32,425 nucleotides of DNA from Promethearchaeota archaeon (lineage in GTDB: Archaea > Asgardarchaeota > Lokiarchaeia > Sigyniarchaeales > SOKP01), in assembly GCA_004524535.1 (NCBI GenBank), contig SDNY01000033.1:1-32425 (forward strand), given 5' to 3'. Shown here piece after piece: positions 1,885-29,776 of the stretch (positions within the stretch are counted from its first letter, which is position 1; each line of letters starts with the position of its first letter). The notes under the pieces were generated by a model, which was not told the DNA's origin, did no database searches, and saw only the letters and a program-made list of their open reading frames with translations. The translations under genes were made by a program, and so were the position numbers.

Positions 1885-2298
1885 ATGTCGATAAGACTAT
1901 ACAATACTGAATTACAAACTCTAATTGATAAAATAGTAAAAGTATATTGTGATGACGATAAATATTTTGTTGGTCAATTAAAAGGAGTTTCAGAGGATTC
2001 AAACCTTATTTTGGTAAATGTTAAAAATGAAAAGAGCAAGGAATTTCCAAAAATACTCTTAAAAAGCTCATTTTATAATTATGTAAGTGTGGAAGAAGAA
2101 CCATTTCCAATGCAAGCGTTGGCGGAAAGGATTTCAAAAATATTTTCCAAAGGACATGTGAACTATATTCCAGAACAAAATGTTATTTCAATTTTAAACG
2201 GAAAAATTATTGTAGACGAAAATGGAGTTAGGGGGTCTGGACCATCTGCAGATAGGGTCAAGAAAATATTTGAACAATTCAAAATGGACCTTGAATAA
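1885..2298 (+). CDS. LSm/Sm-like RNA-binding protein with C-terminal extension domain
   Basis: Residues 8-70 carry an Sm-fold pattern: a hydrophobic L-x-D-K-I-V-K-V strand, K-Y-F-V-G-Q-L-K-G-V in Sm1, and S-N-L-I-L-V-N-V in the strand that follows. Archaeal Sm proteins form heptameric rings that bind U-rich RNA. After the Sm fold comes a second domain of about 65 residues (YIPEQNVISILNGKIIVDEN region and a terminal helix) that normal 75-residue SmAP proteins lack. This resembles the two-domain SmAP3 arrangement, though I cannot confirm homology. The start is ATG. A T-rich tract directly after the stop probably terminates transcription. Confidence 0.72.
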   Translation: MSIRLYNTELQTLIDKIVKVYCDDDKYFVGQLKGVSEDSNLILVNVKNEKSKEFPKILLKSSFYNYVSVEEEPFPMQALAERISKIFSKGHVNYIPEQNVISILNGKIIVDENGVRGSGPSADRVKKIFEQFKMDLE

Positions 2299-2332
2299 AA
2301 ATTTTTAATTTTTAATTTTTTACTTTTTACTT
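2299..2332 (+). terminator. T-rich transcription terminator after the LSm gene
   Basis: Four successive runs of five or six T directly follow the LSm stop codon, in the short gap before a convergent gene. Runs of T in the non-template strand are the usual intrinsic terminator of archaeal RNA polymerase. Confidence 0.5.
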
Positions 2333-2840
2333 ATAACTTTCTATCCTTGAAAATCTCAAGTAAATTTTTTAATTGAATATTTTGAATAATATTTTTGAGT
2401 GCAGCTTTCCCTAAGGGAGTAATTTTTACAAGTTCAAGGTCGTCTATGCTAATTTTCCTTAGATAATCGTTTTCAATTAAAAATTTAACGTCAGAACTCC
2501 ATACTTCAGAGAAAATCTCTTTTAAATCATCAACCTTGATATTTTCATCAACTTCTTTGCTTAGAGCTACAATTAAAGCAAGAGTTCCATATTGACTAGG
2601 TGTAATATTATCGTCTTTTCCTTCAGAGGTTAAAACAAAATATTTTTGGTCTAAAAATTTAGTGGTTATGAGTTCAAAACCTACCTTTCTTAAATTAAGG
2701 TAAACCTCATTAATGATTTGATCAAAATTTGAGCCTTCGCATAAATTCTTGAGGTCTTCTTCCCTTATCATTTTTTGCTGATTTGTTAAAATTAGTTTCG
2801 TGATCTTTGTCACAATTTGATTAAAATTCTCTTTTTCCAT
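2331..2840 (-). CDS. MAGE/Nse3-like tandem winged-helix (KITE-type) protein
   Basis: The 169 residues read as two winged-helix domains in the order of the MAGE homology domain. An I-R-E-E-D-L segment (25-30) precedes a helix, then L-R-K-V-G-F-E-L with a Y-F-V-L-T strand. A hydrophobic helix with L-A-L-I-V-A-L follows, and the second wing ends in a K-I-T-P-L-G-K-A-A-L segment. In eukaryotic SMC5/6 complexes Nse3/MAGE and Nse1 are KITE proteins that bind the kleisin and DNA; bacterial ScpB and MukE are equivalents. This is the last gene of the eight-gene cluster and starts 7 bases after the stop of the SMC-like coiled-coil gene, which fits a KITE role. The family call rests on pattern resemblance; a generic winged-helix regulator is the alternative. 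Confidence 0.55.
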   Translation of the reverse strand: MEKENFNQIVTKITKLILTNQQKMIREEDLKNLCEGSNFDQIINEVYLNLRKVGFELITTKFLDQKYFVLTSEGKDDNITPSQYGTLALIVALSKEVDENIKVDDLKEIFSEVWSSDVKFLIENDYLRKISIDDLELVKITPLGKAALKNIIQNIQLKNLLEIFKDRKL

Positions 2841-2847
2841 GATTTAT

Positions 2848-4458
2848 TCAACTGGTTTCAATTTTTACGGTTTTTATATTTTCAATTGGATTCTTCATTT
2901 CTAAATTCGATATTATAAAAATTAAATTAAATTCCTTAAGATTATTCTCTTTTTCGAAGACTGGTAATATTTTTTGAATTGTTCGAAAAACAGAACCTCT
3001 TTTATTGTAAATTTTGGGTAAAAATAAATTTGAAAAGATAATACTCTTAAAACCTAAATGAATTTGAATTGAGATATAAAACATAATTACAAAAAAAACC
3101 TTTTCAGGTGTAGTTAACTCTTCAAATCCTAAACTCTCTTTACTAGATCGAATAAATTCCAAATTAACAGAAAAATCTTTATAATCACTACTGATTTTTA
3201 TTTGAAAATGGATGGTTAAATTTATTTCAATTATGAATCTATTCAATAGTTCTTCAAAATTATTAATAAAAATTTCAATTTTTCTAAAATTTTTGACTGA
3301 ATCCTCGATCTCATTATTTTCAATAGAAATCAAGACATCATTTTCATTATTTTTAAAAATTTTATTGATTTCTGTCAATTTATTTTGAATTTTTATTAAA
3401 TTTTCAGGATTCTTATTGTCTAAATATTTATTAGATTCAGAAATCTCATTTAAATCGCTATCTATTCTTTGAATTTCATTTTCAATTTCCTGTGGAGGCT
3501 TTAAAAAATCCAATTCCTTATAGTCCATTTCTTCTATAAGATCCTCCTTATTATCCAAAACTTTTTTTTTTAATTCGATTTGTATGTTTTTTAAGCTTAG
3601 TTCATCATTTTTTATTTTATTAAGTAGTGTATTATAATCCTTCTCTAATATCTCATATTTAGGATTGATCTCATCAAATTTCAGTTCTGATTTATTTAAT
3701 TTTAATTTAGTCTGGTTTATTTGATATTGGAAATCTTTAGCTTGTTTTTGTAAATCTTTAATTATTTCGGATTTAGATTTAGATGAGGTATTTTCATCTT
3801 CCAATTTGAGATCTAAATTATTTTTTTGAGTATTTTCACTCATTTGTCTAGTGATTCTATTAATTTGGCTAAAAGCTTCTTTTTTCTTAATATTTAACTC
3901 TTTAATTTCTGAATTAAACTTGTTTAATGTATTTTGTATTTGATCTCTCTGATTTTTAAGAAATAAGAAATCCTTTTCTCGGTATTTTAATTTTTTATTA
4001 TTTTCTTTTATACTTTCATTCAATTTGTTTAATAAGTCCGTTTTGGCAGCGATATCACTCGATTCTATTTTAATTTTTGATAATTCTAGTTCTTTCAATA
4101 ATTTTTTTTTTCTTTTTACAAGTATATTATAGTTTAATGCTAAGATTAATGATTGAACGATATTTCTATATTGAACAATTAGTTTTGAATTATAATTAGC
4201 AATTTTTCGATATTCACTAAAGTGTCGAAGCAATTTTAGAGATTTATTCAAATCTCTATACTCTTCAGATTGATTTTCAAAAATTTTAATCAAATTTTCA
4301 ATAGGAATTGTGTTAAAATCCTTTAAAATTTCTAATATATTGCTTTTTTGAAGTATTTTTAATCCTTCTTTATTGAATTTCCCTAGTATTAGTGTAAACC
4401 TATCTTTTATTTGTATCTCACGTTCTCCTATTGAAATCTTAGATAATATCGATGTTAT
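2848..4458 (-). CDS. SMC/Rad50-like coiled-coil protein with degenerate ATPase head
   Basis: The frame is open from 4458 to the stop at 2848 (536 residues), but the first standard start is a TTG at 4293 (481 residues). The extra 55 upstream codons look real: strand-rich DRFTLILGKFNKEGLKIL sits where an SMC head has its Walker A, but the GxGKS is missing. A long charged coiled coil fills the middle. The C-terminus has LTTPEKVFFVIMFYISIQ where SMC proteins have the LSGGEK signature helix, then a strand ending in FSN instead of a Walker B aspartate, and a final IIFIISNLEM-like strand. I read it as a non-catalytic SMC-like subunit. The KITE-like gene follows after 7 bases. A GTG at 4468 would be in frame if one A of the AAA run at 4457-4460 were absent. 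Confidence 0.5.
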   Translation of the reverse strand: MTSILSKISIGEREIQIKDRFTLILGKFNKEGLKILQKSNILEILKDFNTIPIENLIKIFENQSEEYRDLNKSLKLLRHFSEYRKIANYNSKLIVQYRNIVQSLILALNYNILVKRKKKLLKELELSKIKIESSDIAAKTDLLNKLNESIKENNKKLKYREKDFLFLKNQRDQIQNTLNKFNSEIKELNIKKKEAFSQINRITRQMSENTQKNNLDLKLEDENTSSKSKSEIIKDLQKQAKDFQYQINQTKLKLNKSELKFDEINPKYEILEKDYNTLLNKIKNDELSLKNIQIELKKKVLDNKEDLIEEMDYKELDFLKPPQEIENEIQRIDSDLNEISESNKYLDNKNPENLIKIQNKLTEINKIFKNNENDVLISIENNEIEDSVKNFRKIEIFINNFEELLNRFIIEINLTIHFQIKISSDYKDFSVNLEFIRSSKESLGFEELTTPEKVFFVIMFYISIQIHLGFKSIIFSNLFLPKIYNKRGSVFRTIQKILPVFEKENNLKEFNLIFIISNLEMKNPIENIKTVKIETS

Positions 4459-4471
4459 TTAAAATCACGTC

Positions 4472-5512
4472 TTAATTTTCTTTATCTTCAAATTTTTTAA
4501 CAAATTCTTTATATTCTTTATCTTTCATTTCCTTTCTTTTTCTTATTAAATCTAAAGGATCTATTTCATCGTCTTTTTTAATTAAGAATTTCTCTTCAAA
4601 ATTATTTTCAAATTTAGATTTAAATTTTTCAATTTTCTCAGATACTTCTTCAGATATCTCAATTTTTTTATTTTTATTAGGGTTTTCTACGATATTGGAT
4701 AATTTTTCCCTTTTCTTCTTTCGCATTCTTCTTTTAAATTCTTTATCGGAGAATTTAAAATAATCTTCAAAGGATTGAAGTTGTCTTTCTTGTTTTTCTT
4801 TTAATATAGTTAAACTCGCATCTTCTTTGGTTTTTTCAATAAATCTTCTTTTAGTTTCTAGTTCTTTTTGCGTTGATTTGCTTTCAATATTTTGAATAAA
4901 TTCTTTAAAAGTGATAGGATTGCTATGAAAACTCTTCTCAAAATCCTTTATTAAATTAGGATCACTATTATTTGGGATTTTACTTAATTCTTGCTTAAGT
5001 CTTTTTTTAAGAAGTTCACTGTAATATTTTTCAACTTTTTTTAGAGTTGCCAAATATAAAGAATTTTGTTTTAGCGAATCTAATAAATCTAACCATTCAT
5101 CAAGCGTTAATGAAAATAAGAAAGAAGATTGGTAAATAATTTTACTAATTTTTTTATTTTCAATTAAATTAAGACCAATTTGTTTAATGTTATTACGATT
5201 TAAATTGGATTTTTTTAACTTATCAACAAAATCATCCTTATATTTTTTGATTAATTCGTCTTGAAAAAATATAAATTTACCAATATTCTCTTTCGAAACC
5301 TTAATTAGAGTATCATTAATATTTTTTAAAAGTTGATTTAATTCTTGAATTTGATTAATGAAATCTTGATCACTGAAATTTTTAATAGCATCATCTTTAT
5401 TTTCAATATATTCTTTGTAAATGCTTTCTAATCTGAACAAATTTCCTTGGAGAATTTCTACTGGAGTTGTAATTTCCTTTATTTTTTTAAAATTAAATAA
5501 TTGATTTTCCAT
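4472..5512 (-). CDS. Uncharacterised charged helical/coiled-coil protein
   Basis: I do not recognise this 346-residue protein. It is Lys/Glu-rich and almost wholly helical. The first 175 residues have a more hydrophobic, folded character (for example the SLTLDEWLDLLDSL segment). The C-terminal half is highly charged with a basic patch (KFSDKEFKRRMRKKKREKL, about 252-270) that could bind nucleic acid or a partner. It lies between the AAA+ gene and the SMC-like coil, with 46 and 13 bases to its neighbours. By position it could be the linker (kleisin-like) subunit, but nothing in the sequence demonstrates a kleisin fold. ATG start. Confidence 0.6.
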   Translation of the reverse strand: MENQLFNFKKIKEITTPVEILQGNLFRLESIYKEYIENKDDAIKNFSDQDFINQIQELNQLLKNINDTLIKVSKENIGKFIFFQDELIKKYKDDFVDKLKKSNLNRNNIKQIGLNLIENKKISKIIYQSSFLFSLTLDEWLDLLDSLKQNSLYLATLKKVEKYYSELLKKRLKQELSKIPNNSDPNLIKDFEKSFHSNPITFKEFIQNIESKSTQKELETKRRFIEKTKEDASLTILKEKQERQLQSFEDYFKFSDKEFKRRMRKKKREKLSNIVENPNKNKKIEISEEVSEKIEKFKSKFENNFEEKFLIKKDDEIDPLDLIRKRKEMKDKEYKEFVKKFEDKEN

Positions 5513-5558
5513 AATACTTTACTTCAATAGATTTTCAAAAGTATTAATTTATAAAATT

Positions 5559-6650
5559 TTATATTTCTGGAGGGCCTTGTCCTTGCTTTTTATTTGAACC
5601 TTGTCTTGAACTACTTAATATATCTTGTGTTTCAACGTGGGATGCCGTTCCCCCTACAAGTTTTAATGACACATATAAAATTTCATATGTTAAAATTTCT
5701 GTATGCATTATTTTAAATAAAGCAACTTCAATACCTCTTTGAATATCTGAGCCTGTATAGCCATGCGTTATTTTCAATAATCCATCAATCTTATCATTTT
5801 TCTCTACTTCCTTCCAAAAAAGATCACCATCAAACTCTGATATTCTATGTCCCAATTTTTTTTCTAAATCATTTTCTATGGCTTCTATTTTTTTAAATTC
5901 ATCGTTTAATTTGAGTTGTATGGACTCATCTACTCCTATTTTAGTTTTTTTCACTTTTTGAATAAATAATTCAATGATTACTTTTCTTATACGATAATCT
6001 GGAAATTCAAAAGAAAGATGAAACGTAAATCTCCGCCAAATAGCAGAATCTAATAGATGTTGATGATTCGTAGCTCCTATTATAGCTAATGGATATCCTT
6101 CATAATTTATTCTATCTATAACTTGCAAAAATGAAATAACTGCTCTTTTTATTTCTCCCACTTCGTGTATGTTAGATCTTTCCGAACCAACCGCATCTAT
6201 TTCATCAAAAAACAAAATAAAAGCTCCTCTTTCACTTGCTATGTCTGCAGCTAACTCAACAACTCTCGTAATACTTTTAATAGTATCTCCTAGTAATGGA
6301 GATATAAGCCGATTTGATTCCACTATACAAACGGGAATTTTATATTCCTTAGCAAAGGCTCTAGTAAGTGTAGTTTTACCTGTACCAGGAGGGCCATAGA
6401 GTAAAATGGTTAAATTTGGAATTAAATTCGCTTTTTTTAACTGCTCTTTAATATCATCATATTTTTTTAAACCTTTAAAAAAATCCTCTAATAATTCTTT
6501 TTGCACTTCATTTCCAATAATATCTTCTATAGAATCTTTCACATCTGAAGGAAAATATACTGCTCCAAATCTTCCTAGAAGTTCTTTTATATTATCATCT
6601 GTATATTTAAGGCGTTCCTCAGCCTCTTCCTCATTAGTCGAATTCCTCAT
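5559..6650 (-). CDS. AAA+ ATPase, classical AAA family
   Basis: A single AAA+ module: Walker A GPPGTGKT (86-93), Walker B FILFFDE (144-150), sensor 1 in GATNHQ (N195), and Arg pair R206/R207 in the WRRF segment as candidate arginine finger. The C-terminal lid contains the H-G-Y-T-G-S-D-I-Q-R-G motif typical of the Vps4/katanin/p97/proteasome-ATPase group. An inserted, charged segment of about 50 residues precedes the GYTGSDI helix, and a short disordered Gln/Gly tail ends the protein. There is no MIT, OB or N-domain, so it is not a standard Vps4 or PAN. It is the only recognisable intact ATPase in the eight-gene cluster, and is a plausible motor or remodeller for the adjoining coiled-coil proteins. 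ATG start, 23 bases after the upstream gene. Confidence 0.88.
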   Translation of the reverse strand: MRNSTNEEEAEERLKYTDDNIKELLGRFGAVYFPSDVKDSIEDIIGNEVQKELLEDFFKGLKKYDDIKEQLKKANLIPNLTILLYGPPGTGKTTLTRAFAKEYKIPVCIVESNRLISPLLGDTIKSITRVVELAADIASERGAFILFFDEIDAVGSERSNIHEVGEIKRAVISFLQVIDRINYEGYPLAIIGATNHQHLLDSAIWRRFTFHLSFEFPDYRIRKVIIELFIQKVKKTKIGVDESIQLKLNDEFKKIEAIENDLEKKLGHRISEFDGDLFWKEVEKNDKIDGLLKITHGYTGSDIQRGIEVALFKIMHTEILTYEILYVSLKLVGGTASHVETQDILSSSRQGSNKKQGQGPPEI

Positions 6651-6673
6651 TTTTAATCACCATAGCTTTTTAA

Positions 6674-7939
6674 TTATTTATTTTTTCTTTCTTTTTCAAT
6701 TTTTTTACAATAAATTGCGATTTCATTAATAAAATCTTTGAGATTATCAATTTGAGAACCGATAAAATTAAAAATTTCCTTCCTATATTGAGGAGAATCT
6801 CTAATTTTCATTTTATCTAATCCTAGATAATTAGGGAAGCAAGCAAGCTTCATTAAATAAGGTAAAACTTTTTCATTTGTTTGTAAGTCTTTGAAAATAG
6901 AATAAAAAATATTTTCGTCTGTTAATTTCCACTTTAAAATCCCCATATAAATTAAAAACGCAAAATTCATGGAGATCCAATTAATTAATTCTTTTGATAA
7001 AAATCCACGCCTCATTGATGCGAAAGCTAAATAGTATAAAATTAACGTTTCATTACTAAATTGAGGGATTAATCTAATTGTTCCATCCGATTGTTTACTC
7101 TCACGAAAAAAATTATTTTTGAGAAAAATATCGACTGTTTCTTGTTGGGGAGATAAAAAAATTCCATCCAAAATACGGAGACCTATTCGTTCAGCAAGGC
7201 TCTCAATAGCTTCTTCTTCTGGATTAGCAATCGAATCTATATAAGCTGAAAAAATCTCATTTTTTAAAACCATAGGAATTTCATAATTTTCTTTTTCTGG
7301 GAATTCTCCAAAATTAGGATCCAAATTATATAAAGAAGTAATATTATTGATAATTTGATATACTTTAGGAGACAATCCAGGTATAACAAAAAAATCAGGA
7401 TTTTCTAATTTTTCTCGATAATAAGTATGGGGCATTAATAAATGTCTCTGACATTCATAATAGTTTGCGGAATTTTTGAGTAGGTTCTCATAAATAATTT
7501 GTATACTACTACCTCTTGAAAAAATAGTTTGTTCGATAAATTTAACCAACTGGAATAAATATGTATTCTCGATATTTCTTTGATCAGGATTCGTAATATT
7601 TTGCAAAACTTTTAACGCATCAATTGATTCATATAGGAATTCTACAATATAATCCTTGATATCAATGATTGGAATATCCTCTCTATATTTAACAATGAAA
7701 TCTTTGATAATTTCGTAAACATTAGTTCTATACATCGCTGAAAATTCCGATAGTGCCCTAACTTTTCTAATATTTCTCTTTTCTTCTTCTTGACGGATTT
7801 TATCGAGGACTTCTATATCTAATAAAAGGTCTGGATCTAAGTTTAAAATGATTCTTCTCGTTTCTCTTAGTATCGGCCTCATATGACTGATAAATGTCAT
7901 ATATCTCGGTAATATGTCAGTCCACTTCTCCCGAACCAA
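6674..7939 (-). CDS. Uncharacterised all-helical protein of the AAA+/SMC-like cluster
   Basis: I do not recognise this family. The 421 residues are predicted mostly helical with mixed hydrophobic and acidic faces, without membrane segments, zinc ligands or nucleotide motifs. The start is TTG: a good Shine-Dalgarno GGAG lies about 8 bases upstream, and the upstream gene ends 16 bases before, which argues for translational coupling. Its helical repeat-like composition and position directly upstream of the AAA+ gene suggest a scaffold or adaptor subunit. A remote HEAT-like or tandem winged-helix fold is possible but not demonstrated. Confidence 0.65.
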   Translation of the reverse strand: MVREKWTDILPRYMTFISHMRPILRETRRIILNLDPDLLLDIEVLDKIRQEEEKRNIRKVRALSEFSAMYRTNVYEIIKDFIVKYREDIPIIDIKDYIVEFLYESIDALKVLQNITNPDQRNIENTYLFQLVKFIEQTIFSRGSSIQIIYENLLKNSANYYECQRHLLMPHTYYREKLENPDFFVIPGLSPKVYQIINNITSLYNLDPNFGEFPEKENYEIPMVLKNEIFSAYIDSIANPEEEAIESLAERIGLRILDGIFLSPQQETVDIFLKNNFFRESKQSDGTIRLIPQFSNETLILYYLAFASMRRGFLSKELINWISMNFAFLIYMGILKWKLTDENIFYSIFKDLQTNEKVLPYLMKLACFPNYLGLDKMKIRDSPQYRKEIFNFIGSQIDNLKDFINEIAIYCKKIEKERKNK

Positions 7940-7955
7940 ATCTTTTCTCCTCTTT

Positions 7956-9095
7956 TTATTCTGTATCGGTACCTACAGTAATTTCAGTAAATATATTAGC
8001 AATTTCAACGAAAATGGGAATCTCAACACGACAAAGGTTCCCAAGGATCCACTTATTCACGTCACGAAGAAGAAAACGTATTTGTGTATGAATTTTCTTA
8101 TTAATTTCTGACCCTATTATTTTCGATAACCATAACCCCCCACCTATCCTGTACGCTATTATTTTAATAAGCGGTTCAAAAAGTGGCTCCAAAACTTGTT
8201 TCAACATCCATGATTTAGGAATTACACTCATATTTTGATTATCAAATGAAGGATCTCTCAATATTGGATTAGTTTCATCAATAGATAACTTAGGCATGAA
8301 CCCTAAAATTAGAATTAAAGCAAAAATAGCAGATATTCCATTAATTGTGTATGATCCTCCGATTTTTTCAAGATCATCACGATTAATAGCTACATTTGCT
8401 AAAAACATACAAATAAAAATGTTTCTATCAAAAGCTTCAGAGACATAAGCATATCCTAATTCATCATCAATTATTAAATACTTTTCTTCTAAAATTTTTA
8501 AAATAGCAGGAGGAAAAGTGTAAAAAGTATAAACTTTTTTTTCACTTCTTCTTTTATCCTTTTCAATTACCAGTTCTTTCGAAATCAAACCAAATAGATT
8601 CACTAATTCTTCCAATTGTTTTTGAATATAATGTCGTGGCTTATTCGGGTCTCCAAACATAGCAAAAAATTGATGGTCAACAATATGAAAATCGTTCCTC
8701 TTACTAAAAGCTTCAACCATCCTGTCGATGATAGGTCCTTGTGTACCCATAGCAATAGCTTTTGCTTTAGACGTAACAAATCCATTTAATAATTCGTTTA
8801 TAATAAAATCTTGCTCGTGAGTCCTTGATTTTAAGATTTTTTGAAAAGCCTCAGTAAAATCTTTAGTGTTAGGAAAGAAAGCATTTTGTATCTTATCATC
8901 AATAGATTTAAGAAAGATTGCGCCATTATTATTAGGAAAGTGGATTCGCATATTATTTAATCGCTGTAATAACGCTTCTCTCGCACCAGGAATGTTTTCA
9001 ACATCTCGTTCATTCACTTGCTCAATCGCTTTTTCAACACCTTTAATAAATTCTTGCTGCAATTCTTTCCAAGTAGGATCTTGTTGTTCACTCAT
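7956..9095 (-). CDS. Uncharacterised helical protein with probable winged-helix segment
   Basis: Not recognised. I place the start at the ATG at 9095 (MSEQQ); an in-frame TTG lies 12 bases further upstream. The product of about 379 residues is helical. A middle region (about residues 150-205), with a helix followed by KDKRRSEKKVYTFYTF, looks like a winged helix with a basic wing. A hydrophobic stretch around GISAIFALILILGFMP is too isolated to call a membrane protein confidently. The gene is 27 bases downstream of the zinc-ribbon gene and 16 bases upstream of the next helical gene, so it belongs to the same transcript. Confidence 0.62.
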   Translation of the reverse strand: MSEQQDPTWKELQQEFIKGVEKAIEQVNERDVENIPGAREALLQRLNNMRIHFPNNNGAIFLKSIDDKIQNAFFPNTKDFTEAFQKILKSRTHEQDFIINELLNGFVTSKAKAIAMGTQGPIIDRMVEAFSKRNDFHIVDHQFFAMFGDPNKPRHYIQKQLEELVNLFGLISKELVIEKDKRRSEKKVYTFYTFPPAILKILEEKYLIIDDELGYAYVSEAFDRNIFICMFLANVAINRDDLEKIGGSYTINGISAIFALILILGFMPKLSIDETNPILRDPSFDNQNMSVIPKSWMLKQVLEPLFEPLIKIIAYRIGGGLWLSKIIGSEINKKIHTQIRFLLRDVNKWILGNLCRVEIPIFVEIANIFTEITVGTDTE

Positions 9096-9122
9096 TTTAA
9101 AAAGCAAATTTTTTTTAATATT

Positions 9123-10094
9123 TTAATTAATATCCCAATTCAATTCATTTGCTACTTTTTTTAAAGCAGCAATTAATGATTTTAATAATTTCTTATCGTA
9201 AAAATTAGGAGATGCAACTCCTTTTTGAGCTTTCCAACCCATTTGTGCCCCTTCTCCCATTTCTCTTTGACCATATTTAACAATATTTTGCAAATCTCTT
9301 GACCACCAATAGAATCTAAGCCACTTCTTATTGGGATTATCTTTAGAATAAATTACTACTAAAGCTTTCCACTCTCCCATTAACCACTTCACGGTTATTC
9401 CAGCAATAGGCATATAGAAATTTATAGGAAAATCTCCTTGAAAATTAAGATCTAAATCTGAAGGGGCGATATTAAATATAGGCTGGTTATATCCTTCAAG
9501 AATAACAATTTCTCCACAATGCTGACATTCATAATGCGATTTCATTTTATCCATCTTTTTTTGACATTTAGGGCATGTCCTATTTTCAATAATTCGATAT
9601 TTTATGATATCTAATTTTTTTTCTTTTTCCTTTTGATCTTCAGTTTTAGAAGCTTTTTTTCTAAATTGCCCTTTAAAAGTCCAAAGATCATCGAAATCGC
9701 TATCTATTTTTTCTAAGGCTTTAATCATATTTTTAAGAACTTCTTTTTCATAAATTTTGAACATTCCCGCATGTTGATAAAACGATTTTTTCCACCAAGA
9801 TAATCTAACATACTTTTCACTTGTTAAATAAGGACTATGGCAAATTAACACACCAAACCACCTATTTGGTGTTTTATTAATAGTAATTCCTTTTTCACAT
9901 ACCTCGTATTGCTTATTTAAACTCACATTATTATGATAATATTCTCCATCTTGGAATTCGCCTTCTTCAATTTTTTTTTTTTCTTCAGCTTCAGATTCTT
10001 TATCTACTTCCTTCAATATTTTTTTACATTGAGGACATTGAAATATTCCCGAAACTAGCTGTTCCATCTTAATATTACACGAAGGACAATTCAA
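9123..10094 (-). CDS. Duplicated zinc-ribbon protein with repeated WW-containing domain
   Basis: The protein consists of two similar halves. Each begins with a zinc ribbon (C3, C6, C20, C23; and C174, C177, C190, C193). Each continues with a beta-rich domain that matches the other half: a G-I-T strand, a W followed by a hydrophobic strand, K-x-(V/L)-R-x-x-W-W, and a closing helix (KNMIKALEKI near 121-130; KSLIAALKKV near 305-314). A charged linker (about 140-170) joins the halves. The strand-strand-WW-helix layout is loosely like the single-strand-DNA-binding PC4 fold, but I cannot assign it. The start is TTG, two bases after the previous stop, so translation is probably coupled. A nucleic-acid-binding subunit is the natural guess. 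Confidence 0.6.
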   Translation of the reverse strand: MNCPSCNIKMEQLVSGIFQCPQCKKILKEVDKESEAEEKKKIEEGEFQDGEYYHNNVSLNKQYEVCEKGITINKTPNRWFGVLICHSPYLTSEKYVRLSWWKKSFYQHAGMFKIYEKEVLKNMIKALEKIDSDFDDLWTFKGQFRKKASKTEDQKEKEKKLDIIKYRIIENRTCPKCQKKMDKMKSHYECQHCGEIVILEGYNQPIFNIAPSDLDLNFQGDFPINFYMPIAGITVKWLMGEWKALVVIYSKDNPNKKWLRFYWWSRDLQNIVKYGQREMGEGAQMGWKAQKGVASPNFYDKKLLKSLIAALKKVANELNWDIN

Positions 10095-10096
10095 TT

Positions 10097-11197
10097 TTAT
10101 TCATCACCGCTTGTTATAATAAATCTTTCATAGTCTAAATTTAAAAGTTTCATATCTTTTTCAGTAAAATTTGAAAGCGTATTATTAATTTCAATAATTT
10201 CTCTTCTTAAAGCAATCAAATCATCTTGTATCTCATCAACGATATTATTTTCGTTGAATGAAACGTTCTCGATAAAATTCATATAGTTATATTTTTTATT
10301 TTTTCCAGAGTAATATGATTTAATTTTTATTAATTTATCATTAATTGTTTCCATTTTATACCTAAAATTTAATAATTGCATGAGTTTAGAATTCCAATCT
10401 TTGCAAATTGGAGCTTCATTTTTAATATTGTCAATATCAAATTTATCTGGTAATTTTATATTCTCGTCTTTAAGATAATTTATAATATCTTTATTTTCTT
10501 CAATGGCTTTATTTATTATTTTAATGAAGTTTTTGGTATTTAATAAAGGGTCAAATATTTTGATAAATTTTTCAATTTCATCTTTAATTTCTTTAAATCG
10601 TTCATAAAATCCTTCAATAGTAATTTCCATTTTAATAGCTTGATAGATATTCCCAAATTGATCTATTATATAATATAGATCGTTTGAAAGACAATAGTCA
10701 TTGGCTCCAATTTCAAAAATAAAAGGATGTATCGCAGTACTTATTTCACATCGTACCCCCTTTAACCTAGTTAATGCTAGATTAAAATTCCTTTTAGTTA
10801 GAAATTTAAATTTCTTTTTAATCATTGCAAAAAGTAATTCTTCAGGGACAATAATAGTATTTTGCTTTATTTCTATTGTCTCATCTCCTAGTTTTACGAT
10901 AAAATCATCCTCTTTTGCCTCAAACTCCCTCATGCTTCTTATATTTCTAAGTAATCCTAAATCAACGGCAATCTCAAGGAAAGAACGTTTCCAAAAGGTT
11001 AACAAATTCCCTTTAAAAACATCATCTAATATTAAAACTCTTTCATACGAATCAATAATTTCTTGATCATTTAAATCCTTAAAAAGGTCATTTCTAACCA
11101 CGTATAGAAATAGAACAATATATCTCATCTCAATATCGTCAAGAATCTTATTGATTAAGTTCTTATCATATTCCAATGATAATGTTTTATGTTCCAA
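10097..11197 (-). CDS. Uncharacterised protein, first gene of the eight-gene cluster
   Basis: Not recognised. The 366 residues start at an ATG and end two bases before the zinc-ribbon gene. The N-terminal 80 residues are helical with hydrophobic spacing that could form a helix bundle or winged helix (RYIVLFLYVV at 25-34). A beta-containing middle follows (about 95-190), then a long Lys/Glu-rich helical region with coiled-coil character (205-350). It has no zinc, nucleotide-binding or signal motifs. A folded head plus long helix resembles the layout of kleisins or of MukF-like subunits, but this is only an analogy. Confidence 0.6.
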   Translation of the reverse strand: MEHKTLSLEYDKNLINKILDDIEMRYIVLFLYVVRNDLFKDLNDQEIIDSYERVLILDDVFKGNLLTFWKRSFLEIAVDLGLLRNIRSMREFEAKEDDFIVKLGDETIEIKQNTIIVPEELLFAMIKKKFKFLTKRNFNLALTRLKGVRCEISTAIHPFIFEIGANDYCLSNDLYYIIDQFGNIYQAIKMEITIEGFYERFKEIKDEIEKFIKIFDPLLNTKNFIKIINKAIEENKDIINYLKDENIKLPDKFDIDNIKNEAPICKDWNSKLMQLLNFRYKMETINDKLIKIKSYYSGKNKKYNYMNFIENVSFNENNIVDEIQDDLIALRREIIEINNTLSNFTEKDMKLLNLDYERFIITSGDE

Positions 11198-11416: not shown

Positions 11417-12001
11417 TTGGGAAGAAGAAAAAGAAAACAACCAGGTTATAAGCGAGTTAAGAGGGTACCAAAGATATTCAATTGCCCTTCTTGTGGTGAA
11501 AAGAGCGTAAAGGTTGAGAATATTAGAAAATCTGCGATCGCAACGGTAAAATGCGGATTTTGCGGGCTGAACAAGGACGTATTAGTTAACTCCATTTCGG
11601 AACCTGTTGATGCATTTGGAGATTTTATTGATATTTTTTACGCAGATCAAGAATTACAGAGATTAGAAAAACGTATTGAAAAATTAATAAAAGATAAAGA
11701 ATATGGAGAATTAGCCTTGTGCTATAGTATCCTATCAGATATTTGTAAAGCAAAGGCAGCAGAAGCCTTAGAAGACGAGGATAATATTGACATGGATGTA
11801 GTTAATAATTGGAAAATCAGAGGCGAAGAATACAAAAGGAAAGAGAAAGATGCATTACTAAAATTAGACACAGATGAATTAGAGAGAGGTATTAAAACTG
11901 ACGAGGAATCTCTTTTTGCTGAGCATAAAGAAGGCGGGGGAATAAAGAAAGAGAAAAAGATCGAGGATATCTTTGAAGATCCTGGATTTTTAGAGTTTTA
12001 A
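11417..12001 (+). CDS. Elf1-like transcription elongation factor with acidic C-terminal extension
   Basis: The first 75 residues match the Elf1 family: a basic MGRRKRK tail, zinc ligands C23/C26 and C46/C49, and the E-P-V-D-A-F-G-D-F-I-D segment (about 62-72) that corresponds to the Elf1 E-P-I-D-V-Y motif. In eukaryotes Elf1 binds RNA polymerase II near the DNA entry site and helps passage through nucleosomes; archaeal homologues are thought to act on RNA polymerase. Beyond the domain is an extra helical, strongly acidic region of about 115 residues. The start is TTG, preceded by a good AGGAG. It is divergent from the eight-gene cluster and convergent with the next gene. Confidence 0.82.
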   Translation: MGRRKRKQPGYKRVKRVPKIFNCPSCGEKSVKVENIRKSAIATVKCGFCGLNKDVLVNSISEPVDAFGDFIDIFYADQELQRLEKRIEKLIKDKEYGELALCYSILSDICKAKAAEALEDEDNIDMDVVNNWKIRGEEYKRKEKDALLKLDTDELERGIKTDEESLFAEHKEGGGIKKEKKIEDIFEDPGFLEF

Positions 12002-12009
12002 GTTTTCTC

Positions 12010-13725
12010 CTAAGATTTAAGAATAATTTCCTTTATCATTGAAGGAATGTTTTTCCAAATTGGTAATTTTAAGGCAAAATTAAAAAATTCCTTGTAATTT
12101 AGTTTCTTTTTTTTAATGAGAAAGCTCCAGTTATAAAATGCTAATTTATTAAATAGGTTTATAAAATTAACTCCAATTGGATTATATTTCCAAGCTAAAA
12201 ATTTGGCTAAATATGCTCCAAATTGTTTAGTTTGCCCTTTTGATTCGGGATAAACAGATTCAGCTAAAGATCGATTAAAAAGTTCATAGATTGAAAATAT
12301 AGGAAGAAGTTTTTCTAAGATTTCATTGATTTTAACTTTGTAATTTGCATCATCTAAAGAAAACGAACTCATTTCGTTTAACTTTTTAACTGCATAACGG
12401 AACTGTCTTTCTTTAAAATAAAGCCACATTTTTCCCATTTGATCTCTGAGGTCTTTTAAAGCATTATTTACTTCCTTATCATCAAAGATAAATCTTTGTT
12501 CTTTTTCATATAGTCTTATAATAGTTAAAAAGATTGAATTTGTTGACTCTTCGTCAAAATCTCCGTAACCTACACGTTTACTTAAAAATCTGAGTTTTAA
12601 TTCTTTAGAAGTTGGACTATGTATTGTATGAGTATAAAGACAGGTGGTCCATAATAAATCTTTAATTTTCTCCAATAAATTTCTATGGAGGATGCAGATT
12701 CTTATTATAGAAAATTGTCGAGATAACTTACGTTTTGGAATTAGCAATTCAATGTAAAGCCTAATTTTATCAAAAAAACTGTAGCTTTTTATTAAGTTTT
12801 GCTTCCTTTTTTTATAGAACGCTATTTTTTTGGTTAATAATCTATTAAGAATCATCAGATTTTTTATATAAGAATAGAAATCAATATTATATTTTTGAAC
12901 GATGGATTCATAAGAAATTAAAGGAATTTTTAAAGTATTGACTGAACTAGGTTTTTCAATGCTCATGGCGTGATCTCCAATAGTATAAGAGAAATTTACA
13001 TTCTGTAAGGTTTCTCCTAAAGACGAGAATTTACCTAAATAATTTTGTTCACCAGTAAAATATCCGTGTAATAGCGTATTAACTCCCCTAAAAACATTAT
13101 TTTCATACTCAGATATCATAACTGATTCGAATTCACCCGGATGATGTCTTTTAGATTTGAGTTTCTGATTTACGAGAAAAATTGCTTGATTTGCTTTATG
13201 GCATACGGTATAAACCCATTTCATTAAAGGATCTAATATTTTTGCTAATCTAAACCAATAATTGTAGAATTCTGGACCAAAATATATTGGAAATCCAAAT
13301 CCACGAGAAAACGAATATATAAATTGAAATATATTTCTAGTTTTCTCCCCTTTTAAAAATCCCGGAAATTTAAAATGCAACACGACTCGTGGAAATAAGG
13401 CATCTAAACCTAAATTCATCCACGCCTCAAAAAGGATTATACCATCAGGAAATCTAAAAGAATCTTTTTTACTTATGAAATCATCGCTTAAGGTATTTAA
13501 AGCAGTTGGAATCGTAAAAAGCCAATCCATATTCTTTCTTACAGTTTTTAATCCTTCCTTAAACTTCTTAAAAATTAAAGGTTGAATCTGTTTTTGAATC
13601 TCTGTCTTTTTATAATAATACTTATTCAAAACTCGAAACAACGAGAAAATTTCCAATATTCTTCTTTGTAGATCGTAAACAACTTTTACAGTTAAGCCCT
13701 CTTGAGCTTTATAAGTGGATTGCAA
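12010..13725 (-). CDS. Large uncharacterised helical protein
   Basis: I do not recognise this 571-residue protein. It is rich in aromatic and basic residues and mainly helical, with no signal peptide, convincing membrane helix, nucleotide-binding or metal motif. A Gly/Phe/Pro-rich stretch (about 140-160, including FGFPIYFGPEFYNYW) and a Lys-rich segment around 300-330 stand out. The start is TTG. It lies 146 bases downstream of the polyproline gene on the same strand and ends 8 bases from the convergent Elf1-like stop. If the polyproline protein acts in the cytoskeleton, this could be a large partner, but that rests only on proximity. Confidence 0.65.
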   Translation of the reverse strand: MQSTYKAQEGLTVKVVYDLQRRILEIFSLFRVLNKYYYKKTEIQKQIQPLIFKKFKEGLKTVRKNMDWLFTIPTALNTLSDDFISKKDSFRFPDGIILFEAWMNLGLDALFPRVVLHFKFPGFLKGEKTRNIFQFIYSFSRGFGFPIYFGPEFYNYWFRLAKILDPLMKWVYTVCHKANQAIFLVNQKLKSKRHHPGEFESVMISEYENNVFRGVNTLLHGYFTGEQNYLGKFSSLGETLQNVNFSYTIGDHAMSIEKPSSVNTLKIPLISYESIVQKYNIDFYSYIKNLMILNRLLTKKIAFYKKRKQNLIKSYSFFDKIRLYIELLIPKRKLSRQFSIIRICILHRNLLEKIKDLLWTTCLYTHTIHSPTSKELKLRFLSKRVGYGDFDEESTNSIFLTIIRLYEKEQRFIFDDKEVNNALKDLRDQMGKMWLYFKERQFRYAVKKLNEMSSFSLDDANYKVKINEILEKLLPIFSIYELFNRSLAESVYPESKGQTKQFGAYLAKFLAWKYNPIGVNFINLFNKLAFYNWSFLIKKKKLNYKEFFNFALKLPIWKNIPSMIKEIILKS

Positions 13726-25970: not shown

Positions 25971-27287
25971 GTGTTGAAGAATCCCAATGAAAAATATAAT
26001 TTTAATATAGATCAGTTTTATAAGGATTATAAAAAAGGTCCTAAAGTTTTTAAAAATAGAGATGCTTTAGAGCCATCGTTTGTTCCTGATGAATTACCCC
26101 ATCGGAATAAAGAAATTCAAAAGATTGCTGAATTAACCGCATGTGCATTAATGGGTGATGCTCCTCCAAGCTTTTTATGTTATGGTATGACTGGTACTGG
26201 GAAAACTGCTACTATTAGATATGTGAGTCAAAAGTTAGAATATCACACTAAAGAACACAAACCATGGTGGATTTATATCAATTGTAATGTAGTATCAACA
26301 CCTTACCGCATTTTAGCTCATATTTATAATACTATTTCTGGAAGTGAAAAAATACCTCCTACTGGGTTACCAAAGGATGTAATCTTCAAAAAATTGTTAG
26401 GATTATTGGACCAAAAGGTTGGAAATTCTATTTGTTTCCTTGTTTTAGATGAAATTGACAGATTAATTGAAAATAAGAAAGGTGGGAATGAAATTCTTTA
26501 TGATCTTACAAGATTGAATGAGAATTTAGATTATTGTAGAACGAGTTTGATTGGGATTTCTAACAAATTAAAATTCAGAGAAAATTTAGATCCAAGAGTG
26601 TTATCTAGTCTTGGAGAAGAACCCCCTATTGTTTTTAATCCTTATAACGCACCCCAACTTGGGGATATTCTAAAAGACAGAGCTGAAATTGCATTTTATG
26701 ATGGGGTTTTAGAAGAGGGAATTATTCGTTTGTGTGCTGGGTTAGCAGCAGAAGGGGATGGGGACGCAAGAAAAGCGTTACAATTACTACGAAAAGCAGG
26801 AGATTTAGCACAAAGAGCTCAGAAAGACGTAATCAAAAGAGAACACGTTTATGAAGCACAAGATGATCTAGAAAAAGACCATGTCATAGAATTTATACTT
26901 GGAATGCCTTTACAGGCACAATTAACATTAACAGCGATTTATTTATTATCAAAATTTCCTGAATCACCAGAGATCATCATCTCTGGGGATGTTTACGAAG
27001 TTTATGCTGAGCTTTGCGGCATTATTCCAGGAGTTAGAAAATTAACCGAAAGAAGAATTAGCGACTATATTAACGAATTAACCTTAGCCGGTATAATCTC
27101 AGCACCAATAAAATCAATGGGATATCACGGGAGAACAAAAATTATTAGATTAGACATCGATAAGGTGTTTTTAAAAGACATATTATCGAAGATTGACAAA
27201 ATTAAAAATATTTTAAATTATAAACCAATTTTACTTCAATCAAATAAAGTAAAATTAAAAAATAACGTTTTTAAAAGATTAATTTAG
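25971..27287 (+). CDS. Orc1/Cdc6 replication initiator
   Basis: This AAA+ protein recognises replication origins and loads the MCM helicase. Walker A is GMTGTGKT (72-79), Walker B LVLDEID (157-163), sensor 1 GISN (195-198), and the arginine finger region LDPRVLSS (R209). Sensor 2 lies in GDGDARKALQLLRKAG (about 264-279). The C-terminal winged helix (about 320-425) has a K-L-T-E-R-R-I-S-D-Y-I recognition helix. At 438 residues it is a full-length archaeal Orc1. The start is GTG; the region before it carries repeated elements. It overlaps the convergent SWIM-like gene by 4 bases and is close to both PolD genes. Confidence 0.95.
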   Translation: MLKNPNEKYNFNIDQFYKDYKKGPKVFKNRDALEPSFVPDELPHRNKEIQKIAELTACALMGDAPPSFLCYGMTGTGKTATIRYVSQKLEYHTKEHKPWWIYINCNVVSTPYRILAHIYNTISGSEKIPPTGLPKDVIFKKLLGLLDQKVGNSICFLVLDEIDRLIENKKGGNEILYDLTRLNENLDYCRTSLIGISNKLKFRENLDPRVLSSLGEEPPIVFNPYNAPQLGDILKDRAEIAFYDGVLEEGIIRLCAGLAAEGDGDARKALQLLRKAGDLAQRAQKDVIKREHVYEAQDDLEKDHVIEFILGMPLQAQLTLTAIYLLSKFPESPEIIISGDVYEVYAELCGIIPGVRKLTERRISDYINELTLAGIISAPIKSMGYHGRTKIIRLDIDKVFLKDILSKIDKIKNILNYKPILLQSNKVKLKNNVFKRLI

Positions 27288-27961
27288 CTGGAGAACTCCC
27301 ATTCATTAATATTCTCTGCTATATCATTAAGGAATTTAATACAATCCGATTCTTCTTTCAGTAGCAAGAAGATTCTTGCCAAATGTTTACAAAATTTTTT
27401 ATTTATAGCCCTTCTTGTTTCAAAATCGTGACAATTATGATGAATGATTTTATTTTTAGTATCGATTTCGATATTGTAAGATTTCTCCTTTGATCCGGCA
27501 ACGTGAGCCTTAATTAATCCTTTTTTAAAATCAAATATATCAATTTTGAAAGCATCGTTCGATATAGTTGCAGCTCTATTTATGGTTCCCTTATCTAAAA
27601 AAGATTTAAGTAGAGTATTAAAATTAGAGCTTTTCTCGGCTTCAAAATCATCTATTAAGGAATCAAATTTTCTGCTTGAATTTAATTTAGTTAAAATTAT
27701 TTCTTTCCTTTTTAATTGCCACGTTTTTAATTTCTTATATGAATTTTGAGGCAATTGAAGATTGCTATTATCATCCTTTTCCAAGGAATTGCTTTTAATC
27801 GAGCGTTGAAGGAATTCTAATGCTTCTTCGGGAGATAATAGAAAAAGTTCGAAAGAAATTTTATACACTAATTCATTCATAGAAATATTGGGAAGATCTA
27901 TTACTTTCCAAATATATAACAGTAATTCCGAATCATTATTATAAGGTATTTTGAAAATCAT
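27284..27961 (-). CDS. SWIM-like zinc-finger protein
   Basis: The C-terminal third has the SWIM pattern: a strand Y-N-I-E-I-D, a strand K-I-I-H-H-N-C, then a gap and F-C-K-H-L. The likely ligands are H175, C177, C191 and H193, so the first cysteine of the usual CxC...CxH is replaced by His. The N-terminal 60 residues form a helical domain (WKVIDLPNISMNELVYKISF, then SPEEALEFLQRSI). Related archaeal proteins of this layout occur near replication genes. It overlaps orc1 by 4 bases tail to tail and lies 30 bases after the PolD small-subunit stop, so it is probably read from the PolD transcript. DNA or protein binding is inferred. Confidence 0.68.
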   Translation of the reverse strand: MIFKIPYNNDSELLLYIWKVIDLPNISMNELVYKISFELFLLSPEEALEFLQRSIKSNSLEKDDNSNLQLPQNSYKKLKTWQLKRKEIILTKLNSSRKFDSLIDDFEAEKSSNFNTLLKSFLDKGTINRAATISNDAFKIDIFDFKKGLIKAHVAGSKEKSYNIEIDTKNKIIHHNCHDFETRRAINKKFCKHLARIFLLLKEESDCIKFLNDIAENINEWEFSS

Positions 27962-27991
27962 CTAAATATGTTTTTTTATTAATTATGTGTA

Positions 27992-29776
27992 TTATTTATT
28001 CACTTTTTTTAAGTCTAACGGCCCTTTAAATTTAAGCGTATCGAGTTCGAGAATTGATAAAATTCCAGGTGTTGGTTGGATACCGAAGCTTCGCATGAAG
28101 TCTGTTTGGGATTGGAAGCAGCCTGAGTTAACTAAAGCAATATTATTATAATATCCTATACCGTTGATGTGAACATGTCCTGTGTGAAAGATTTCTGGAA
28201 TCTGATCTATTACAAGCCAATCTTTATTAGTTGGGGCTATTTGGGTTTTTTTGCCATAAATTGGAGCTAAATGCCTACATTTTAAGAATTCTTCCATTAT
28301 TTTAACGGGTTTATTTTGTTCCAAATCCGAAATCGATAATGACATATCAAGAATACTATCTCCATGATAAATAAGTGTCTTTACATCATGGGTTTTTACT
28401 ATTGCAGGATTTCCTATACATTTTACACCTATATTAATCAATGCTTCAGCGTACTTTTTTGGTACAGCTGGTCGAGGAATAGCATTCCTTACTGGTTCAT
28501 GATTACCAGAACTGTAAAATATTTTTATGTAATCAGGAATTTCAGAAAGATATTCTGAGGCTTTTTCATATTGCAGATAAATGTCTGAAATAGTGAGATC
28601 TTGTTGTTGATTTGGATAAACACCGATTCCGTCCACTAAATCTCCATTTATAATTAAATATTTTACCCTTCCAGCAATTTCTCGCCAATTATTATTACCA
28701 ATTTTACCACTTAGAAAATTTATAAACCTTTTCCATAGTTTTTCTTCGAATTCTTTACTTCCTATATGAGTATCGGAAATAAAAGCAATTGACAATGGTT
28801 CTGAAGATTTAGTTGTTTCATAATTGACAGGGACGTCTATTCTTAAGACATTATCAGCAAAAAGGATACCTCTTTTACCTGGCTCTCCCGGATTGTAGGT
28901 TCCTTCAACAAGGATCATTTGATCCTTGACAATTTTCTCAGCTATTTTGCGATTTTCAGAATCTTTTCTCACAATAACATTAAGAAGACCTGTTTGATCT
29001 TCAATTGTTATAAAATAATTCCCTTTTTTCGTTTGACGTATTTCATTTACCAAACCGGTTGCTGAAAGATATTGATTTTGAGAATTCCTAAAGATATTGT
29101 TGATTTTAACCACTGACAGAGCTTCGGGCCTCTTTCGCATAAGTTTATAAAGGCGATTAAACTTATCCAACGTTAAATTGTAAAAATCATCATAACTTCC
29201 AGAAGTATATAATTTACCTGTAGGATCGCTTAATATTTTATAATCTGCGTTATATTTTTTTGCTATAGGGTTAAAAGTAAGGGTAGATTTAGCAGCCCCC
29301 GTTGGCCTAATTTCGATTCTATTTGTTTTATCGTCTTGTTTATACGAAAAAGTTTGAGATTCATGATCCTCAGCTTTAATGTAATTATTTTTTTTAATAT
29401 GACTATTGATTACTGAAGAATTTTGAGATAATATTTCTTTTTCATTGATATTTTTCTCAATATTAGCGTTGAAATTTAATTCTTCACCTGATTTTTTCTC
29501 TATCGGAAGAGTCTCTTCTCTAATTAAGATTCTTCTCAATGCTTTTTTAAATTTTTCGTTTGAGATTTTTTTTAAATCTTTTTCAGTTAAATGACTATTA
29601 AATGTGGGTAAAAAACTCATTTCTTTAATAATCAGAGATATTTTGTTTAGAGGATTATCTAGTTTAAGGATTATATCTAACGTTGAAGGTGTTATATTTA
29701 TTCCAGAATTAACCAATTTGTCAATTAAGATTCTTTTTTCTTCTGAATTTCCCGCATTCAATGTTTTTTCATTCAT
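27992..29776 (-). CDS. polB: DNA polymerase D small subunit DP1 (3'-5' exonuclease)
   Basis: DP1 is the proofreading exonuclease of the archaeal replicative polymerase PolD. A weakly conserved N-terminal region (1-150) is followed by an OB fold (about 220-315; TGLVNEIRQTKKGNYFITIE). The Mre11-like phosphoesterase carries all expected motifs: SDTHIGS (D335, H337), NGDLVDG (D379), SGNHEP (N425, H426), YHGDSI (H471), and HTGHVH (H534, H536). The active site therefore seems intact. The invariant S-G-x-F-Q-x-Q-T-x-F-M segment (551-561) is present too. ATG start; it is divergent from the large-subunit gene across a 243-base shared promoter region. Confidence 0.96.
   Translation of the reverse strand: MNEKTLNAGNSEEKRILIDKLVNSGINITPSTLDIILKLDNPLNKISLIIKEMSFLPTFNSHLTEKDLKKISNEKFKKALRRILIREETLPIEKKSGEELNFNANIEKNINEKEILSQNSSVINSHIKKNNYIKAEDHESQTFSYKQDDKTNRIEIRPTGAAKSTLTFNPIAKKYNADYKILSDPTGKLYTSGSYDDFYNLTLDKFNRLYKLMRKRPEALSVVKINNIFRNSQNQYLSATGLVNEIRQTKKGNYFITIEDQTGLLNVIVRKDSENRKIAEKIVKDQMILVEGTYNPGEPGKRGILFADNVLRIDVPVNYETTKSSEPLSIAFISDTHIGSKEFEEKLWKRFINFLSGKIGNNNWREIAGRVKYLIINGDLVDGIGVYPNQQQDLTISDIYLQYEKASEYLSEIPDYIKIFYSSGNHEPVRNAIPRPAVPKKYAEALINIGVKCIGNPAIVKTHDVKTLIYHGDSILDMSLSISDLEQNKPVKIMEEFLKCRHLAPIYGKKTQIAPTNKDWLVIDQIPEIFHTGHVHINGIGYYNNIALVNSGCFQSQTDFMRSFGIQPTPGILSILELDTLKFKGPLDLKKVNK

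Follow-up and report, generated by a model that had tools for sequence, protein, structure and literature searches.

What kind of machine is encoded by eight consecutive genes of a Lokiarchaeal chromosome that bring together a live AAA+ ATPase, an SMC-like protein with replaced ATPase motifs, a KITE-type protein and several helical proteins? The genes lie in the window analyzed here, a stretch of 32,425 nucleotides on contig C101 of a 3.66-Mb genome. All eight ORFs, which an earlier note on this DNA had described as co-directional, were confirmed on the minus strand, running from position 11197 to position 2331 in the transcription order G8-G7-G6-G5-G4-G3-G2-G1. From G8 to G1, the intergenic gaps measure 2, 15, 16, 23, 46, 3-13 (depending on the start of G2) and 7 bases. 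The features of the region, including the two conserved flanking genes that lie outside the system, are as follows.

11417..12001, plus strand: elf1, conserved flank outside the system
10097..11197, minus strand: G8, 366 aa, the first gene; no recognized family
9123..10094, minus strand: G7, 323 aa; two zinc ribbons, internal duplication
7956..9107, minus strand: G6, 383 aa; predicted (AlphaFold) to be helical with a winged-helix-like middle
6674..7939, minus strand: G5, 421 aa; helical, paralogue of G6
5559..6650, minus strand: G4, 363 aa; AAA+ ATPase of its own subfamily (PF00004, 5.8e-26)
6372..6395, minus strand: Walker A of G4, GPPGTGKT, invariant in 26 sequences
6195..6215, minus strand: Walker B of G4, LFFDEID, with DE invariant in 26 sequences
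4472..5512, minus strand: G3, 346 aa; helical, fast-evolving
2848..4458, minus strand: G2 (open frame), ~536 aa; predicted SMC/Rad50-type head with a coiled-coil hairpin (AlphaFold, Foldseek)
4360..4383, minus strand: Walker A position of G2, GKFNKEGL in place of GxxGxGKS (alignments)
3100..3117, minus strand: ABC signature position of G2, LTTPEK in place of LSGGE, conserved (alignments)
3022..3045, minus strand: Walker B position of G2, IIFSNLF, without Asp-Glu; N477 nearly invariant (alignments)
2331..2840, minus strand: G1, 169 aa; KITE-type tandem winged-helix protein (hhalign)
1885..2298, plus strand: lsm, conserved flank outside the system

The earlier description of the cluster was accurate overall, except that the ORF listed for G2, from a TTG at 4293, was too short, the frame running to 4458. 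Beyond elf1, a 571-aa protein without a Pfam match (window 12010-13725) is kept beside elf1 in family f1 genomes, and about 15 kb from the cluster the window contains orc1/cdc6 and a gene resembling the small subunit of DNA polymerase D (25971-29776).

Among the eight proteins, only G4 passed a Pfam cut-off (the AAA family), and NCBIfam contained nothing specific for the cluster proteins; by these comparisons, most of the eight genes belong to no known family. The Walker A, Walker B, sensor 1 and arginine motifs of G4 are intact and invariant across 26 orthologues, as the earlier note had anticipated for an active AAA+ ATPase. In a phylogenetic tree, G4 groups with the AAA protein of the sister version described below (dAAA, support 99/97) and is separate from PAN and CDC48. 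Among named families, IetA ("IteA" in NCBIfam) scores best, at 167 bits versus a cut-off of 510, and the IetA models give PAN 141-143 bits as well. Judged by its motifs and by the tree, G4 is a classical-clade AAA+ ATPase with intact motifs that forms a subfamily of its own. A ring of G4 would probably be hexameric.

The AlphaFold model of G2 (mean pLDDT 84, pTM 0.55) consists of an N-terminal group of strands, a coiled-coil hairpin and a C-terminal strand-helix head. The hairpin is single, with a loop of ~20 residues in a protein of 536 aa in total, and the model has neither a hinge nor long arms. A Foldseek search against the PDB returned the heads of Rad50, SMC, JetC, MukB, LmuB and Smc5/6 with E-values from 1.5e-8 to 1e-3, the long coils accounting for part of the best values; compared with an isolated SMC head half, 1xew_Y (the C-terminal half), the model reached a TM score of 0.50 by target. 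The Walker A, signature and Walker B sites carry the replacements listed above in an alignment of 25 sequences, and several of the replacement residues at these sites are themselves conserved. Comparison of the two head halves with SMC head profiles was not significant (hhalign, 11% and 2%), so that the SMC assignment relies mainly on the predicted fold and on the order and positions of the motifs. A PDB profile search with G1, G2, G5 and G6 yielded nothing informative beyond coiled coils. The predicted fold and the replaced motifs agree with the dead SMC head that the earlier note had proposed, and they support G2 being an SMC/Rad50-type head with a short coil that is catalytically dead through motif loss. 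The best explanation of the alignments is that the head is maintained in a noncanonical form and that the usual ATP binding and hydrolysis have been lost.

The beginning of G2 is unusual. Homology extends to ~4458 in the open frame, where there is no ATG, GTG or TTG start, and the same holds in a second genome of the genus (G001); the lack of a usual start in two species of the genus points to a rare start or a frameshift. In the adjoining segment (window 4458-4472; L044 8420-8468), a GTG lies in a different frame, which ends at a stop codon about nine codons later.

G1 matches KITE proteins of the c- and e-type archaeal SMC operons discussed below, with hhalign giving 83.7% (E 8.1e-6, 116 columns) against a pooled c/e/d KITE profile. 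By this profile comparison, G1 is homologous to the KITE subunits of SMC complexes, in agreement with the two-winged-helix protein noted earlier at the end of the cluster. No kleisin was found within the cluster by profile comparison: G3 and G8 scored 1.2% and 0.25% against a pooled kleisin-like profile, a comparison that a diverged kleisin could escape. Neither protein matched a recognized family, and G3 did not match the KITE profiles. G5 and G6 are distant paralogues (hhalign 92.6%, E 4.7e-7). G6 is among the most conserved proteins of the cluster, and its model is helical with a winged-helix middle (pLDDT 75, pTM 0.78); a Foldseek search against the PDB and viral models gave nothing significant, the best matches being TFIIH (E 0.28) and TFIIE-alpha (E 0.75). 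The duplication previously recognized in the zinc-ribbon protein G7 was recovered as well, its two halves aligning with an E-value of 1e-6.

If the eight genes form a unit, they should be kept together. All eight proteins were compared by tblastn against the loci of 38 relatives and 58 named loci of the GTDB collection. The order G8 to G1 sits between elf1 and lsm, and in every Lokiarchaeal locus with both flanks (37/37) all eight genes are present in the same order and on the same strand; the single deviation among 348 adjacent gene pairs is a missing G2 match in locus L130. The earlier note had suggested a neighborhood search for co-occurrence across Asgard genomes, with independently scattered homologues counting against a common machine; such scattering was looked for, and the eight families were found together. 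G4 was matched in 39 of 58 relatives, and profiles of G5 and G6 matched 61 and 62, respectively, of the 228 genomes of the phylum, the matches being confined to families f1 and f2 apart from one weak G6 match. Both genes are single copy in about 60 of the 228 genomes searched, G5 in most genomes of the two Lokiarchaeal families. That about ten f1 genomes truly lack the cluster was not supported: each of the eight examined either lacks elf1 as well or has a contig break within elf1, which makes assembly gaps likelier than deletions.

The dN/dS ratios lie mostly between 0.02 and 0.5 across the genes, with occasional higher values at very small dS. G2 and G3 evolve fast, and the ratio for G2 is 0.2-0.4. 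On the evidence of these ratios, the cluster genes are under purifying selection. G5 had no relatives in viral contigs, and repeat and promoter scans of the cluster region were uninformative. The best explanation of the distribution is that the cluster is vertically inherited and chromosomally fixed in the Lokiarchaeales families f1 and f2. At one locus (L097, 2400-9000), a 6.6-kb insertion between G8 and G7 carries genes for a secreted-looking protein and for a 1,226-aa protein of an unrecognized kind; G8-G7-G6 are uninterrupted on another contig from that bin (L100). A weak G6-like protein (E 3.7e-5) occurs on a 5.4-kb contig of another Asgard family (genome G112, L152 1022-5041), with an E1-E2 fusion and a JAB protein nearby.

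The link of the cluster to SMC proteins does not depend on G2 and G1 only. Two genomes of family f2 (G042 and G050, loci L073/L074) have a diverged version of the cluster. They encode homologues of G4, G5, G6, G8 and G7 (hhalign 97-100%; 96.9% for G8 against dG8 and 100% for G7 against dG7), and beside this core lies a full-length SMC of 1,057 and 1,071 aa, respectively, with intact Walker A and Walker B motifs. The best PDB matches of the L073/L074 SMC are eukaryotic SMC5 and SMC6 (E 5e-9). In G042, a downstream protein matched Nse4_C at 19.3 bits, below the cut-off of 26 (E 0.0013), and may be a kleisin of the Nse4 type; small downstream proteins look winged-helix-like by eye, with profile comparisons that are not significant. 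The G042 cluster is located near lsm and an1 and is inverted relative to locus L069. Other genomes of the same genera (G037, and G046 and G049) have the common version, which lacks a full-length SMC, so that two states of the cluster coexist within genera. Of the earlier proposal of a separate DNA-organizing, segregation or defense machine, the part strengthened by these loci is the SMC link, since the five core genes here accompany an intact SMC5/6-like protein.

AAA proteins are found beside SMC proteins elsewhere in Asgard genomes. The same genome contains, on contig C103 (L144, G000:C103, 8247-14142), an operon encoding a dead AAA-like protein, an intact SMC (1,150 aa), a kleisin-like protein and a KITE protein, and this SMC was found in 53 of 58 relatives. 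Family f22 possesses an AAA-SMC-kleisin-like-KITE operon with a live AAA protein, near genes for E1, E2, RING and JAB proteins. Together, the C103 and f22 operons indicate that AAA beside SMC is a recurrent archaeal arrangement. At L209 (G136:C20, 6615-18981), an M48-RING gene also lies near the f22 operon, a neighborhood that recalls the RING subunit of SMC5/6; an SMC that is 73% identical to that of an f22 genome occurs at L151 (G047:C173), on a contig that may be a contamination in a Lokiarchaeal bin.

With its dead AAA and intact SMC, the C103 operon is the reverse of the window cluster, in which the AAA is live and the SMC dead, as might be expected if the cluster were a loader or regulator of the intact C103 SMC-kleisin-KITE complex. 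The losses are not complementary, however: the C103-type AAA is dead also in families f3 and f4, which do not have the window cluster, and in two other Asgard genomes. Furthermore, G042 and G050 hold both a C103-type locus and their own intact-SMC version of the cluster. Such an accessory role therefore appears improbable, and its specific form in which live G4 rescues the dead C103 AAA was ruled out, because the same AAA is dead where the cluster is absent.

Three genomes (G011, G023 and G163) have an insert in the cluster precisely at the junction of G4 and G3 (L123 13934-20685; L118 13865-21152; L116 13770-18661; L218 453-7480). The insert encodes a zinc-hook Rad50-like ATPase of 644-669 aa, small proteins of ~150 aa and DNA-modification genes, in sets that differ by genome: a PAPS reductase (BrxP/SspD-like), a C5 (5mC) methylase, TGT and DUF5591, and a DpdB-like protein recalling 7-deazaguanine (Dpd) modification, along with an HhH-GPD nicking-endonuclease-like protein and a HerA-like ATPase. 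G4 is extended at its C terminus in these three genomes, and its frame in G023 is split into two parts. A diverged second copy of elf1 lies near the insert in G011 and G023. Replacement of G3-G2-G1 by the Rad50-like module was ruled out, as G3-G2-G1 are present downstream of the insert.

These inserts bear on the function of the cluster, which we infer to be either maintenance or surveillance and defense. SMC-type defense systems are known, namely, Wadjet and Lamassu, and the modification genes between G4 and G3, together with the likeness of G4 to IetA of the IetAS defense system, favor surveillance. Under this explanation, the cluster would recognize DNA that is foreign, unmodified or damaged, and exclusion of that DNA would be driven by the AAA+ protein, in the manner of SMC-based or modification-based restriction. 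The inserted genes could also reflect a chance insertion hotspot, and the IetA likeness is offset by the low score of G4 and the high scores of PAN with the same models. In a PADLOC scan of G1, G2 and G4-G8, there was no match for G1, G2, G5 or G6, and those for G7 and G8 were marginal only. The eight genes include no nuclease or effector; this and the near-universal vertical inheritance at one locus favor maintenance. The constant location across nearly all genomes and the failure to match G5 in viral contigs likewise indicate vertical rather than mobile inheritance and argue against surveillance, which we regard as rather unlikely.

A machine that does not act on DNA at all, such as a protein-remodeling or cytoskeletal AAA+ complex reusing an SMC-like coil, has a precedent in Arcadin-4, a cytoskeletal relative of SMC (PMC9389158). 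The KITE protein, the winged helix of G6 and the intact-SMC version all speak against it, as do the Rad50-like and DNA-modification neighbors in three genomes, and we hold it to be very improbable.

We consider the chances about even that the cluster encodes a chromosomally fixed machine for handling DNA, in which the AAA+ protein supplies the power and the SMC part has been retained as a scaffold. The core of this machine would be G4, the paralogous helical/winged-helix pair G5-G6, helical G8 and zinc-ribbon G7, and the core's partner would be an SMC-superfamily module, here reduced to dead G2, KITE-like G1 and G3. The occurrence of G4-G8 beside an intact SMC or a Rad50-like ATPase in other genomes suggests a core regularly found alongside SMC-superfamily partners. 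As a clamp or adaptor, G1, G2, G3 and the winged helix of G6 may grip DNA or an SMC-type partner, and the G4 ring, by turning over ATP, would load, unload or remodel this assembly. We infer that the proteins would form a physical complex with DNA as its substrate and G4 as its motor. Tentatively, the cluster may even represent a distinct class of chromosome machine that combines an AAA+ ring motor with an ex-SMC clamp or adaptor and whose G4-G8 core swaps partners: a dead short SMC, an intact SMC5/6-like protein, or an added Rad50-like ATPase with DNA modification.

As a rule, an SMC machine is its own motor. A dead SMC and an intact AAA+ ring in one conserved operon would show that the SMC scaffold is separable from its engine, and because close relatives carry an intact SMC5/6-like protein with the same core, the switch could be studied within one archaeal order. 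The host group, related to the ancestor of eukaryotes, is the nearest to them, which makes it relevant to the origin of SMC5/6. An archaeal SMC5/6-related SMC and the ASRP/coalescin family have been described (PMC9389158), and a 2026 review of Asgard archaea treats SMC in general terms only (PMC12993045); the literature searched for an Smc5, Asgard or AAA operon, with partial coverage, contained no description of this one.

Among known systems, the archaeal AAA-SMC-kleisin-KITE operons (c-type in this genome, e-type in f22) share the KITE homologous to G1 and have the gene order AAA, SMC, kleisin-like, KITE; in contrast, the window cluster has G5-G8, G3 and a dead SMC, whereas the c-type has a dead AAA and a live SMC. 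The window cluster looks like a derived relative of these operons with five extra families. The SMC5/6 complex (Smc5, Smc6 and Nse1-6) and the archaeal SMC5/6-related SMC have in common with the window an SMC-type head with a coil and a KITE protein, and the sister version adds the resemblance of its SMC to SMC5/SMC6 and the weak Nse4_C match; conversely, the SMC of the window is dead, short and hingeless, a kleisin was not found, and no counterpart was found for the AAA+ protein or G5-G8. Wadjet (JetABCD) and MukBEF share a KITE-type subunit and JetC/MukB heads that the G2 fold matches, but the cluster lacks the JetD nuclease, its SMC is dead and an AAA+ protein is added; the PADLOC scan gave no match to JetA, JetB, JetC or JetD for G1, G2 and G4-G8. 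Lamassu (LmuACB) and Rad50-Mre11 possess SMC-superfamily heads with coils that were among the Foldseek matches of G2, yet the cluster contains neither the LmuA effector nor the Mre11 nuclease. IetAS supplies the best-scoring named family of G4, but at a third of the curated cut-off, and neither an IetS-like gene nor any protease family was found among the eight genes in Pfam or NCBIfam. With ATPase motifs and hinge lacking in its SMC and no kleisin found, the window cluster falls outside the definition of an SMC-kleisin-KITE complex, but the parts it works with probably descend from one.
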